Below are positions 14,473-20,471 of a stretch of DNA of 49,562 nt, one piece after another. The notes beneath the pieces are model-generated. The model was given only the letters and a program-made list of their open reading frames with translations. It searched no databases and was not told the DNA's origin. The number at the start of each line of letters is the position of its first letter. Position 1 is the first letter of the stretch. The stretch comes from Saprospiraceae bacterium (GTDB taxonomy: Bacteria; Bacteroidota; Bacteroidia; Chitinophagales; Saprospiraceae). Both the position numbers and the translations under genes were made by a program. The stretch is taken from contig JAGQWZ010000005.1 of assembly GCA_020436835.1 (NCBI GenBank), positions 1 to 49,562 of the forward strand, read 5' to 3'.

Positions 14473-15810
14473 ATGGCCAAGAAGAAAGCTTTAGTAGAGA
14501 AATTAACCCCATCCCTAAGTGAGCAATTGGCTGCTGCTAGGTCCAGCATAGCAGCATTGCAAAAAGAGCTCGACATTGAAGCGGCTCTCGAGCGAGTACG
14601 AAGCAAGACCATGGATATGCACAGTAGTGATGCACTACCGGAGGTTGTACAGGTTCTTTATAAGGAATCCGAAAATTTTGGCATATCGACATTTGGAATT
14701 TCACTAGCAATATTCAGAGAGGAGGAAAATGCCGTGGAGTATTGGTTTGCTGACCATCTTGGATCAAATTTACTCCAAAGCTATAAGGTAATTGGCCAGG
14801 AAAATAAAGTCTTCAAGCAGATCTGGCAGGCATGGAAAAACAGCAATCCGCAATTCCAGGTATTTATGGAAGGCGACGAAAAATGTGATTATGATACTTT
14901 TATCCTGGAAGAAACTGAATTCCGAAAATTACCTGAAGACCTAAAAGAGGGTATTCGCGTGCACGAAACGGTCTGCTTTACCTTTACTTTTTTTAAATAC
15001 GGATACTTTGAATCAGTTGATTTACAAGTACCACCTGAGGAAAACAAGAGTATTCTAACTCGTCTCGCCAAAGTATTCGAACAAACCTATACCCGTTTCC
15101 TCGACCTCCAGAAAGCGGAAACACAGGCATTGGAAGCTGAAATACAACTGGCATTGGAGAAGGTGCGCGCTCAGACCATGGCAATGCACAAAACCAGTGA
15201 ATTAAAGTCAGTAATCCATACTTTGTTTCAACAGTTGAAAGGGCTAGAATTTGATGTGACTGCCTGTGGGCTATCACTATTTGACAAAAACGATAAATCG
15301 CTGACCATATGGCTGGCAGGATTTGGGACTATTGCCTATCCCCAAAGTTATTATGTCCCTTATTTTGATCATCCTTATTACAATGCACAATTGGCAGCTT
15401 GGGAAAAGGGAGAAAAATATCAAGTATTCAAATTTGAAGGTGCGCTTAAAAGGAGTTACGATGAACTAATATTTTCAGTGGGCGAGTATAAGAATCTACC
15501 CACTTCCGCGAAGGAAGCTATCCTAGCTATTGATAATGCCAACAATTGTACGGCATTTATGAAATATGGCATGGTGGAGTCGGTCATCGTCGGTGATCAG
15601 GCACTTTCCAGGCATCAGGCAGAATTTTACAGCGCTTTGCCAAAGTATTCGAACAAACCTACACCCGTTTCCTCGACCTCCAAAAAGCGGAAGCACAGGC
15701 CCGGGAAGCACAGATCGAAGCAGCCTTGGAAAGAGTTAGGGCTAGTACCATGGCCATGCACAAAAGTGTCGAATTGCTCAAAACGGCAAAGGTGCTCTTT
15801 CACGAGCTGA
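14473..15810 (+). CDS. Nine-module histidine kinase HK-E, N-terminal part before the frameshift
   Basis: This is the beginning of one large gene (14473-20471). Residues 1-33 are a Lys/Ala-rich helix without a signal peptide, so the protein is cytoplasmic. Module 1 starts near 14572 (AALERVRSKTMDMHSSD) and module 2 near 15139 (LALEKVRAQTMAMHKTSE). Each ends in a conserved helix (FEQTYTRFLDLQKAE). The original frame is good until about 15623 (LSRHQAE). After that it gives a low-complexity Lys/Arg/Ser tail to 15810 that matches nothing in the modules, while the neighbouring frame continues the module. The natural product is therefore the joined protein, about 1999 residues if one base is restored. 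Confidence 0.85.
   Translation: MAKKKALVEKLTPSLSEQLAAARSSIAALQKELDIEAALERVRSKTMDMHSSDALPEVVQVLYKESENFGISTFGISLAIFREEENAVEYWFADHLGSNLLQSYKVIGQENKVFKQIWQAWKNSNPQFQVFMEGDEKCDYDTFILEETEFRKLPEDLKEGIRVHETVCFTFTFFKYGYFESVDLQVPPEENKSILTRLAKVFEQTYTRFLDLQKAETQALEAEIQLALEKVRAQTMAMHKTSELKSVIHTLFQQLKGLEFDVTACGLSLFDKNDKSLTIWLAGFGTIAYPQSYYVPYFDHPYYNAQLAAWEKGEKYQVFKFEGALKRSYDELIFSVGEYKNLPTSAKEAILAIDNANNCTAFMKYGMVESVIVGDQALSRHQAEFYSALPKYSNKPTPVSSTSKKRKHRPGKHRSKQPWKELGLVPWPCTKVSNCSKRQRCSFTS
15622..15629 (+). other. One-base frameshift joining the two parts of HK-E
   Basis: Frame 1 ends meaningfully at AE and frame 3 resumes at ILQRFAKVFEQTYTRF, the standard end of a module. One extra A before the TTTT run would give A-E-I-L-Q-R-F-A-K without a gap. 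With one added base the region 14473-20471 becomes exactly 2000 codons including the stop. This may be an assembly error or a true mutation; the run is too short to be a convincing phase-variable tract. Confidence 0.75.
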
Positions 15811-18800: not shown

Positions 18801-20471
18801 GCCTGGGAGAAACAAGAAAGAAGACTGGTGATTGAGTTGCAAGGTCAGGCAAAAATAGACTTTGATACAACTTTCTTAACCGAAACAGACTATCGTGATC
18901 TCCCGGAAGAAGTAAAAAGAGTCATCACCGAGCCGGATTCAGTTACCTTTTCCCATGCCATGATGCGACATGGATTTCTGGAAGCCATTGATAAAAAACC
19001 GTTGACCGATGAAGAATTTTTAATCCTGGAGCGTTTCGCAACGGTTTTCGAACAGACTTATACCAGGTTTCTCGATCTTCAGAGAGCAGAAGCGCAGGCG
19101 AGGGAAGCAGTAAGGCAAGCCTCTTTGGATCGCGTCCGTGGAGAGATAGCCAGCATGCGCACTTCCGAGGATCTCAACTACCTCACTCCATTGATCTGGC
19201 GTGAACTGCAGTCATTGGAAGTTCCGTTTATCCGCTGCGGTGTTTTTATCGTCAATGAAGAAAAAAATAATGTTGAGGTATATCTGACTACTCCGGAAGG
19301 GCAGGCACTGGCTGTCTTGAATCTGGACCTTGAAGCCAATGAACTGACGCGCGATGCGGTTCAACATTGGAAGGGCAGCCAGATGTATACCACCCGTTGG
19401 GAACGTAATGACTTCATGAATTGGATGCAGGCGATGATCAAAGCCGGACAGGTTGGGGACGCAGAAACGTATCAGGGTTCTTCTTCTCTCCCAGATACAC
19501 TGCATTTGCACTTTGTTCCTTTCCGACAGGGAATGCTCTATGTCGGGGACATTGCTCCATTACCTAATGAGAAACTGCAATTGGTAAAAACCCTTGCAGA
19601 TGCATTTTCCATTGCCTATGCCCGATATGAAGATTTTAAGAATCTGGAGGAAGCTAAAACCCAGATAGAATCCACACTACACGATCTAAAATCTACCCAG
19701 GCGCAGCTGGTCCATTCCGAAAAGATGGCCTCCCTTGGTGAACTCACCGCCGGCATTGCTCATGAGATTCAGAATCCATTAAATTTTGTAAATAACTTTT
19801 CGGAAGTCAACAGGGAACTTCTTCTGGAATTGAACGAAGAAATTAAAAAAGGCAATTTGGAGGAAGTAGAAATGATCACAAAAGATCTGATTGAAAATGA
19901 AGAAAAAATCTACTTTCACGGCAACCGGGCAGGGACGATTGTCCGGGGAATGCTGGAACACAGCAGAAACAACAAGGGACAAAAAGAATTGATTGACCTT
20001 AACAAACTCGCTGATGAATTCCTTCGCCTAGCCTATCACGGATTAAGAGCGCAAAACCGGCATTTCAAAGCTCATTGGAGCACAGATCTTGATCCGCAGT
20101 TGCCACTCATAAAAGTAGTTTCACAAGACATAGGAAGGGTAATACTAAATCTGATCAATAACGCTTTTCAGGCTGTAGCTGAAAAAGACGCGCTAAATAA
20201 GGAGCATTATTCGCCTGAGATCAGGGTAAAAACTCAAATGCTAAAAGACGAGGTCGAGATTTCAATTGAGGACAACGGGCCTGGAATTCCGGAGGAGATC
20301 AGGAACAAAATCTTTCAACCCTTCTTTACGACAAAACCAACCGGCCAAGGCACCGGCCTGGGACTCAGCCTCGCATACGATATAATAAAGGCACATGACG
20401 GTGAAATCAAATTAAGAACCAGTCCAGACACCGGAACCTGTTTTACCGTTAGTCTACCCATCATAAATTAG
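15624..20471 (+). CDS. Nine-module histidine kinase HK-E, main part after the frameshift
   Basis: The frame is open from 15597; no start codon fits, so it continues the 14473 gene. Modules 3-9 begin near 15711, 16290, 16863, 17418, 17973, 18546 and 19108. Each is ~185-193 residues: a helix with ALERVRxRTMAMHxSEEL, a core with a conserved AW, a late K/R/S-x-G-Y/F-L strand, and a linking helix FEQTYTRFLDLKKAEAQARE. A GAF-like fold is my guess; no known domain was identified. The transmitter follows: phospho-acceptor His (codon 19761, residue ~1764) in GIAHEIQNPLNF, N box NLINNAFQA, G1 DNGPGIPEEI, G2 GTGLGLSLAYD. Neither inserted segment of HK-A to HK-C is present. There are no membrane segments. 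If the 14473 part is not joined, translation could begin only at an internal TTG or ATG near 15726-15760. Confidence 0.88.
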   Translation: MLQRFAKVFEQTYTRFLDLQKAEAQAREAQIEAALERVRASTMAMHKSVELLKTAKVLFHELKDLGIALEVCGFSIMEKELPKGNQFLSIRGTLFPEPIPIQFDQEHQLEKVYKAWKDHQTFLVLDIMGEELRQHMTSMKQLVKDLNSVELLAGTAGKLASDDDPHGRLLVYHAFFSHGYLFLTNTQPIEEERILVRFAKVFEQTYTRFLDLKKAEERARQAQIEAALERIRSRAMAMQKSEELPEVALAFLTQVDHLSIPVLGVALSVVNTTEDTFVTYLADNTDDPGKRKLLQSAECKVGSFWLSNETVNRQRAGEKEFNLQASGEKLEAWIKFIEEVFSPERAQRMRSANLERIYAYAVEFYETSNFIFSSVKPLPDEDRSVIIRLVNTFRMSYLRFLDLKKAEEQAREAQIEAALERIRSRSLAMRDSAELSEVSTVLFRELFGFCDAIKSSGIVLCDRKTPEQWMCSFDIKMLPPIHIPRDFDQTIKNLYKAWEDQEELYIESLSKEEVREHSRRMMDLPEIKAIFERLPPSDVVEQAGQTNYAATFSQGYLLVITESPVEGLSMLPRFAKVFESIYTRFLDLKKAEAQAREAEIQLALERIRARTMAMHSSEELTEAASVLFQQILALDLKPVASAFIIVDEKNSTGEVFISADGTVIPDSFTLPYHGELAQDQILEAWKQRRPYIIVDLKGKNLKEHLRFIARNMPVGDMLEASGQAQPDRLALHIINFKYGFLGINYLEPNQEIIPLLQRFANVFEQTYTRFLDLKRAEAQAREFRIEASLEKVRAASMAMHQSEELPNVAQVLVEQLDNLQVKQLGSSIVEIDEESERYNQYSAHDNLKDNTKVLNIIRDFDLTPIFLGREILRRTRALERDFTIELTGSNLKEWMHYVRDNIHEARGVAMIQAGFESIYFHFAVFHRSSAVVITTPVPMPDDDRKILRRMANTFGVSYQRYLDLLRAEEQAREAQIEAALERVRARTMGMHKSDELKEVVAVLYKEIDVLGLSAFGFELVLVKPEDDILEYWSKPVSLEFAKCFKVPKKVHSFFERQWEAWEKQERRLVIELQGQAKIDFDTTFLTETDYRDLPEEVKRVITEPDSVTFSHAMMRHGFLEAIDKKPLTDEEFLILERFATVFEQTYTRFLDLQRAEAQAREAVRQASLDRVRGEIASMRTSEDLNYLTPLIWRELQSLEVPFIRCGVFIVNEEKNNVEVYLTTPEGQALAVLNLDLEANELTRDAVQHWKGSQMYTTRWERNDFMNWMQAMIKAGQVGDAETYQGSSSLPDTLHLHFVPFRQGMLYVGDIAPLPNEKLQLVKTLADAFSIAYARYEDFKNLEEAKTQIESTLHDLKSTQAQLVHSEKMASLGELTAGIAHEIQNPLNFVNNFSEVNRELLLELNEEIKKGNLEEVEMITKDLIENEEKIYFHGNRAGTIVRGMLEHSRNNKGQKELIDLNKLADEFLRLAYHGLRAQNRHFKAHWSTDLDPQLPLIKVVSQDIGRVILNLINNAFQAVAEKDALNKEHYSPEIRVKTQMLKDEVEISIEDNGPGIPEEIRNKIFQPFFTTKPTGQGTGLGLSLAYDIIKAHDGEIKLRTSPDTGTCFTVSLPIIN

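Follow-up and report, generated by a model that had tools for sequence, protein, structure and literature searches.

A histidine kinase gene with nine tandem predicted GAF-like modules and a constant joint length in a Saprospiraceae bacterium

How is a bacterial kinase to be read when nine copies of a module matching no named domain precede its single transmitter? Such a gene lies at positions 14473 to 20471 of contig JAGQWZ010000005.1 of a Saprospiraceae bacterium (assembly GCA_020436835.1). The window analysed here, 49,562 nucleotides, is the complete contig, from a genome of 7.28 Mb in 691 contigs. We propose, with a probability of roughly 0.6, that the gene encodes a histidine kinase whose nine tandem predicted GAF modules, held at a constant joint, form a multi-ligand rod summing cytoplasmic signals. 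Sequence comparison shows nine copies, one linker length, recurring core types, a type confined to the last position, an intact transmitter and a kinase spacing quantised in heptads. The GAF fold, and a helix running through the joint (one joint modelled), are structure predictions.

Nine homologous modules of about 190 residues each extend from 14575 to 19667, ahead of a HisKA/HATPase transmitter (Table 1). An earlier note, made from the sequence of this stretch, had recognised nine module starts and ends, and these lie in the sequence near where it placed them. It took the copies to be homologous, and they are: with linkers removed, the nine window cores score 35.4 to 90.3 bits against a core profile built from other genomes only, and no shuffled core exceeds 5.1 bits among the 173 of 180 shuffles that were reported. 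Leave-one-out profiles of the window cores alone recover nine of nine, at 22.6 to 88.6 bits. The nine-copy repeat is far beyond chance, and its copies form one homologous family. For the wider comparison we took 986 full-length matches and removed duplicates, rows with unknown residues and the window's own eight loci, which left 884 modules to set beside the nine of the window. In these 893 modules the ends are conserved and the cores diverge, as the note had described (58% identity over 50 linker columns against 18.6% over 133 core columns). The starting motif that it assigned to every copy is present in all nine; the ending motif is not identical in every copy, because the ninth module has a distinct linker, 19–34% identical to the linkers of the other eight.

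The transmitter has the phosphoacceptor histidine and the ATP-binding N, G1, F and G2 boxes of a histidine kinase (HATPase_c match, 1.1e-25; HisKA, 24.2 bits, slightly below its cut-off of 26.9). No 19-residue stretch with a mean hydropathy of at least 1.8 was found in either of the two open reading frames (ORFs) over which the array is spread in the window, and the kinase is predicted to be cytoplasmic. No further copy of the module was found elsewhere in the same genome.

The note had recognised no named domain in the module, and sequence models agree. Neither Pfam nor NCBIfam, run on both window ORFs, gave a credible model for it, nor did a search of the PDB by sequence, and we rejected a named domain on these results. 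For the second ORF, the best 25 of 80 NCBIfam matches all begin at residue 1291 or later, in the transmitter or directly before it; in a plasmid collection, the best 20 of 2973 records match only from residue 1266 onward, the transmitter end. Among 122 modules searched against Pfam-A, one reaches GAF_2, at an E value of only 0.066 (among the best 25 of 27 families), and curated sequence models did not place the module in the GAF superfamily. Structure prediction of one module followed by a fold search, which the note had proposed as a check, bore out its guess of a GAF-like fold. AlphaFold2 gives module 8 alone a confident GAF fold (pLDDT 95.8): the model has the central antiparallel sheet between helices and the long N- and C-terminal helices of that superfamily, with six strands. 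Foldseek TM-scores by query are 0.50–0.56 in the first ten rows, except one at 0.42, and the structural matches include cyclic-nucleotide GAF structures; the fold is assigned among the matches that VIA and Foldseek listed. HAMP domains are four-helix units without a sheet, and a poly-HAMP chain does not fit the six predicted strands. Cyclic-nucleotide-binding GAFs carry an NKxnFx3DE-type motif. We rejected membership of that subset: an NKxFxDE-type motif occurs in 26 of 893 modules, window module 1 among them, against a mean of 16 (range 11–22) in shuffled sequences. We regard the module as a predicted divergent GAF-like domain without a Pfam model.

The spacing between modules is identical in 692 of 692 junctions, and in 198 of 198 junctions of loci, some overlapping, that were selected with the profile and not with the linker pattern, although modules with very different joints might escape the profile. 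From R169, present in 890 of 893 modules, to the R9 of the next module, present in 893 of 893, there are 24 residues at all eight window junctions and at 646 of 646 in the larger comparison; the stretch from R9 to R169 ranges from 152 to 178 residues. With modules 7 and 8 predicted together, the joint is modelled as one continuous helix from the end of one module into the next, in line with the long signalling rod that the note had suggested. The phosphoacceptor histidine follows the last module at a distance of 39 (n = 1), 46 (n = 41, the window's value), 53 (n = 9) or 60 (n = 16) residues; three arrays measured at 243 have one further module, which lies 53 residues from the histidine. All of these distances equal 4 modulo 7 (70 of 70, comprising the array ORFs with both landmarks and a module in the alignment) and thus fit the requirement of a parallel coiled coil. 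They agree with the seven-residue length dependence of kinase linkers described in excerpts of PMC6798134. The unusual part is that the joints between modules have no heptad variant.

Agreement between linkers might arise by selection on the protein or by copying of DNA. Among 36860 comparisons of third bases at fourfold linker sites, a fraction of 0.379 agree, where 0.298 is expected; for the window linkers the fraction is 0.302 and the expectation 0.273. The excess is above 0.1 in 27 of 80 arrays. We rejected gene conversion as the main cause, because third bases are only modestly above expectation, and the linkers appear to be conserved mainly by selection on the protein.

The cores fall into 79 types in 86 arrays (average linkage cut at 0.70 identity distance, on which the types depend). 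The 12 largest each recur in 16 to 64 partly overlapping loci and have their own fixed polar and aromatic residues. Pairs of the same type within arrays number 181 of 3414 (161 ± 12.5 in shuffles), and recurring neighbour pairs, at 269, are above the 189 ± 12.9 of shuffles. By these counts, arrays resemble draws from a shared set of types. Local tandem duplication was rejected as their source, with only 8 of 3418 within-array pairs above 60% core identity. Some types are tied to a position: two come first in 20 and 14 arrays, and the type of module 9 takes the final place in all 40 cases where it occurs in a kinase-bearing array. Among 67 such arrays, last modules share 30% core identity with one another, against 19% for interior modules, and in 53 of the 67 the nearest neighbour of the last module is another last module. 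All 59 members of the module 9 type have a cysteine at position 42, with R41, G43, W87 and Y141 also fixed; a cofactor or redox role for Cys42 is possible.

Comparison with the closest relative among the matches listed (P0002; 63% identity, 1617 residues) points to module exchange. Modules 1 and 2 are 76% and 85% identical to their counterparts, modules 6–9 are 82, 93, 98 and 90% identical, and the transmitter 90%. Because modules 3–5 have no ortholog in P0002, which has one different module instead, and because modules 6–9 and the transmitter are conserved, interior modules have been exchanged in this pair and the kinase end kept. This natural swap of three modules against one offers a ready test of sensor interchangeability, and such swaps a design rule for many-input kinases.

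Of 60 near relatives, 11 have the module, as do 34 genomes in a phylum-wide sample of 395; both counts include the window's own genome. In the phylum sample at most 8 candidates per genome were scored, and copy counts are lower bounds. Among 7998 scored candidates of a protein search, 3566 reached E ≤ 0.001, and the best 120 of these, the window's own included, all have 7 to 15 module matches. At least 77 loci fetched by a linker query belong, by their record titles, to a broadly drawn Bacteroidota, in which we count Ignavibacteria and Rhodothermales; some loci overlap or share contigs, and locus counts are not all independent. Ninety ORFs have at least three modules. In 68 of them, with arrays of 3 to 21 modules, the kinase is encoded in the same ORF. 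All 90 run from module to module without interruption, and uninterrupted arrays reach 21. The note had called a nine-fold array before one transmitter unusual, which these counts do not support: arrays of 3 to 21 are normal, nine is near the middle, and nine copies are ordinary for this family.

Other architectures accompany these. A SnoaL_3 (NTF2-like) head, matched by Pfam in the three heads examined (one just under the cut-off), occurs in 47 of the 120 listed proteins (seen, for example, at loci L068, L080 and L130); the window array has no such head. An Ignavibacterium locus (L120:7268-12517) has seven modules followed by a SpoIIE phosphatase, with no kinase, and a class III cyclase domain is the alternative output in proteins P0026 and P0118. 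Where members are named, this large Pfam-less sensor family is annotated as 'ATP-binding protein', 'sensor histidine kinase', 'hypothetical protein' or by its NTF2-like head. In open-licence PubMed Central (PMC) text the module's motif strings are absent, and titles and abstracts on tandem or many GAFs, Bacteroidetes kinases and sensor censuses did not yield the family. We tentatively suggest, at somewhat less than even odds, that Bacteroidota practise combinatorial sensing, in which a shared library of dozens of GAF-like types is reshuffled in evolution into rods of 3 to 21 receptors, each rod deriving a single kinase output from many metabolites. Equally tentatively, the types would be interchangeable at a locked joint length and helical phase, with dedicated modules in last position.

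In the mechanism that we propose for the multi-ligand rod, modules would pair in a parallel dimer and different core types would bind different small cytoplasmic molecules, a possibility raised in the note with which the data are consistent. Binding would shift the dimer coiled coil, the locked phase would carry the change along the rod, and the last module would adapt the signal to the kinase. The receiver (23101) and the receiver-cyclase (23474), encoded 3 kb downstream, would be the targets that this kinase phosphorylates. Positions 601-24529 hold five same-strand kinases with differing sensors, then the receiver and receiver-cyclase; within the kinase run, a 729-residue ORF on the opposite strand (8363-10552) has no Pfam match at E 0.001. 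The transmitters of the five (three propeller/Y_Y_Y, the array and TPR) are 59–77% identical. The neighbouring propeller and TPR kinases, whose transmitters are similar, would feed the same output, many inputs meeting on one second messenger. A receiver-cyclase is found at 1e-60 in 20 of 44 array-bearing genomes, counting the window's own and two at 38–40% identity on other contigs. The other 17 are at least 55% identical: in 10 genomes the cyclase gene follows a module array, on its strand, by no more than 11 kb, in 2 more the distance is about 29 and 37 kb, in 1 the two share a contig but are far apart, and in 4 they are on separate contigs (distances computed by hand from coordinates). A receiver-cyclase output shared by the kinases here is likely. 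Further along the window, an aldolase/short-chain dehydrogenase fusion (30216-32315), an alpha-L-rhamnosidase gene (32534-35497) and, at 42260-43546, a gene resembling glucuronyl esterases may form a neighbourhood for sugar use.

Several results weigh against a multi-ligand rod with this output. The Foldseek scores of the predicted module are modest, and the geometry from module to module appears to depart from that of known tandem GAFs, because the modelled pair aligns to tandem-GAF chains at a root-mean-square deviation (r.m.s.d.) of 7.5–9.5 Å or more. The cyclic-nucleotide motif count is near chance. The only core residue near universal is L35 (0.95), and a common ligand motif therefore cannot be named across the aligned cores. 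The 27 arrays with excess third-base agreement indicate that part of the linker conservation may be copying at the DNA level. By the hydropathy measure used above, a hydrophobic stretch is present in 5 of the 68 array-kinase ORFs from other loci. No receiver-cyclase was found at 1e-60 in 24 of 44 array-bearing genomes, and cyclase output is thus not a general rule. Finally, as sequenced, the window gene is broken in module 2.

This break bears on whether a nine-module protein is made at all. The ORFs at 14473-15810 and 15726-20471 are in different frames, with the junction inside module 2, and the frame of the second is already open from about 15597; P0002 has a single frame across the site. 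The one kinase of the earlier note therefore stands as nine modules before one transmitter, and not as one frame. The gene may be split only as sequenced: a sequence error and a real break are both compatible with the data. That the window copy is decayed or translationally split we consider improbable. The break itself favours that view, as do abutting module runs in different ORFs at 5 of 77 other loci (four metagenome assemblies, L072, L083, L085 and L089, and one isolate, Gelidibacter algens, L135). Against it, neither window frame has a stop codon other than at the break; identity to P0002 is 98% for module 8 and 90% for both module 9 and the transmitter, beside 76% and 85% for modules 1 and 2; and a sequence error at 15600-15640 is plausible because the assembly is in 691 contigs.

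The main rival is a ligand-free rod, in which GAF-like modules bind nothing and only transmit or set distance, as may be the case in NarX/NarQ. Linkers are far better conserved than cores, copy number ranges widely from 3 to 21, and in excerpts of PMC8199190 the GAF-like region of NarQ/NarX, missed by Pfam, is thought probably to be a transmitter only. However, recurring core types whose polar and aromatic residues stay fixed in 16 to 64 loci would not be needed in an array that served as a spacer only, nor would the near-random draw from many types seen in the same-type pairs, and we think this rival unlikely. Least probable is that all modules bind one same ligand, copy number tuning avidity or threshold. 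The shared predicted fold of tandem copies and the matches to cyclic-nucleotide GAF structures would suit it, but core types differ in their fixed residues, and the cores of one array are on average no more alike (18.8% identity) than cores overall (18.6%).

Table 1 Array and neighbouring signalling features of the window, in contig positions.
Feature	Positions	Strand	Remarks
ORF 1: short leader, module 1 and module 2 as far as the frame break	14473..15810	+	
ORF 2 as listed: modules 3-9 and transmitter	15726..20471	+	TTG start codon within module 3
Module 1	14575..15138	+	GAF-like; core type as module 8
Module 2, stretch 5' of frame break	15142..15606	+	
Frame break in module 2	15600..15640 (about)	+	Unbroken in closest relative P0002
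Module 2, end stretch (helix into next joint), other frame	15615..15710	+	Profile positions 156-187
Module 3	15714..16289	+	
Module 4	16293..16862	+	
Module 5	16866..17417	+	
Module 6	17421..17972	+	
Module 7	17976..18545	+	Structure predicted jointly with module 8
Module 8	18549..19109	+	Structure predicted alone: GAF fold
Module 9, kinase-proximal	19113..19667	+	Core type last in 40/40 kinase-bearing arrays of other loci
Coiled-coil connector, HisKA and HATPase_c transmitter	19668..20468	+	H, N, G1, F and G2 boxes intact
Propeller/Y_Y_Y histidine kinase	601..4314	+	Transmitter similar
Propeller/Y_Y_Y histidine kinase	4311..7664	+	Transmitter similar
Propeller/Y_Y_Y histidine kinase	10820..14140	+	Transmitter similar
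TPR histidine kinase	20583..22970	+	Transmitter similar
Single-domain response regulator	23101..23481	+	
Receiver and class III nucleotide cyclase	23474..24529	+	Candidate output of kinase cluster

GAFs in tandem, long chains of HAMP units and kinase linkers with heptad steps are already known; a Pfam-less GAF-like family forming mixed-type rods, with as many as 21 modules and one joint length, was not found in the open-licence literature searched. The tandem GAFs of PDE2A, PDE5A, PDE6 and CyaB2 resemble the predicted fold of the array, and both modules of the modelled pair align to them together. Those proteins have two GAFs, however, whereas the arrays have 3 to 21, with 6–12% sequence identity, no recognisable cyclic-nucleotide motif, a different predicted module geometry (r.m.s.d. 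at least 7.5 Å) and a kinase output in 68 of the 90 arrays kept. NarX and NarQ likewise have a GAF-like region unrecognised by Pfam, although excerpts of PMC8199190 describe it as a single copy in a membrane kinase, unlike the array here. In poly-HAMP chains such as that of Aer2, concatenated modules also pass a conformational signal through merged helices, and the excerpted text of PMC3570549 describes a chain type without obvious signal input motifs. The array modules, by contrast, have a predicted α/β sensor core. PAS/LOV-linked and phytochrome histidine kinases have one or few sensors. Their helical kinase linkers have discrete lengths with a seven-residue period (excerpts of PMC6798134), as found here before the histidine, but in the arrays heptad variation is confined to the last linker, and modules are joined to one another at one length throughout. 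Natural variation thus amounts to the classic linker experiment: sensor joints keep their length, and heptad steps occur nowhere but in the segment ahead of the kinase.

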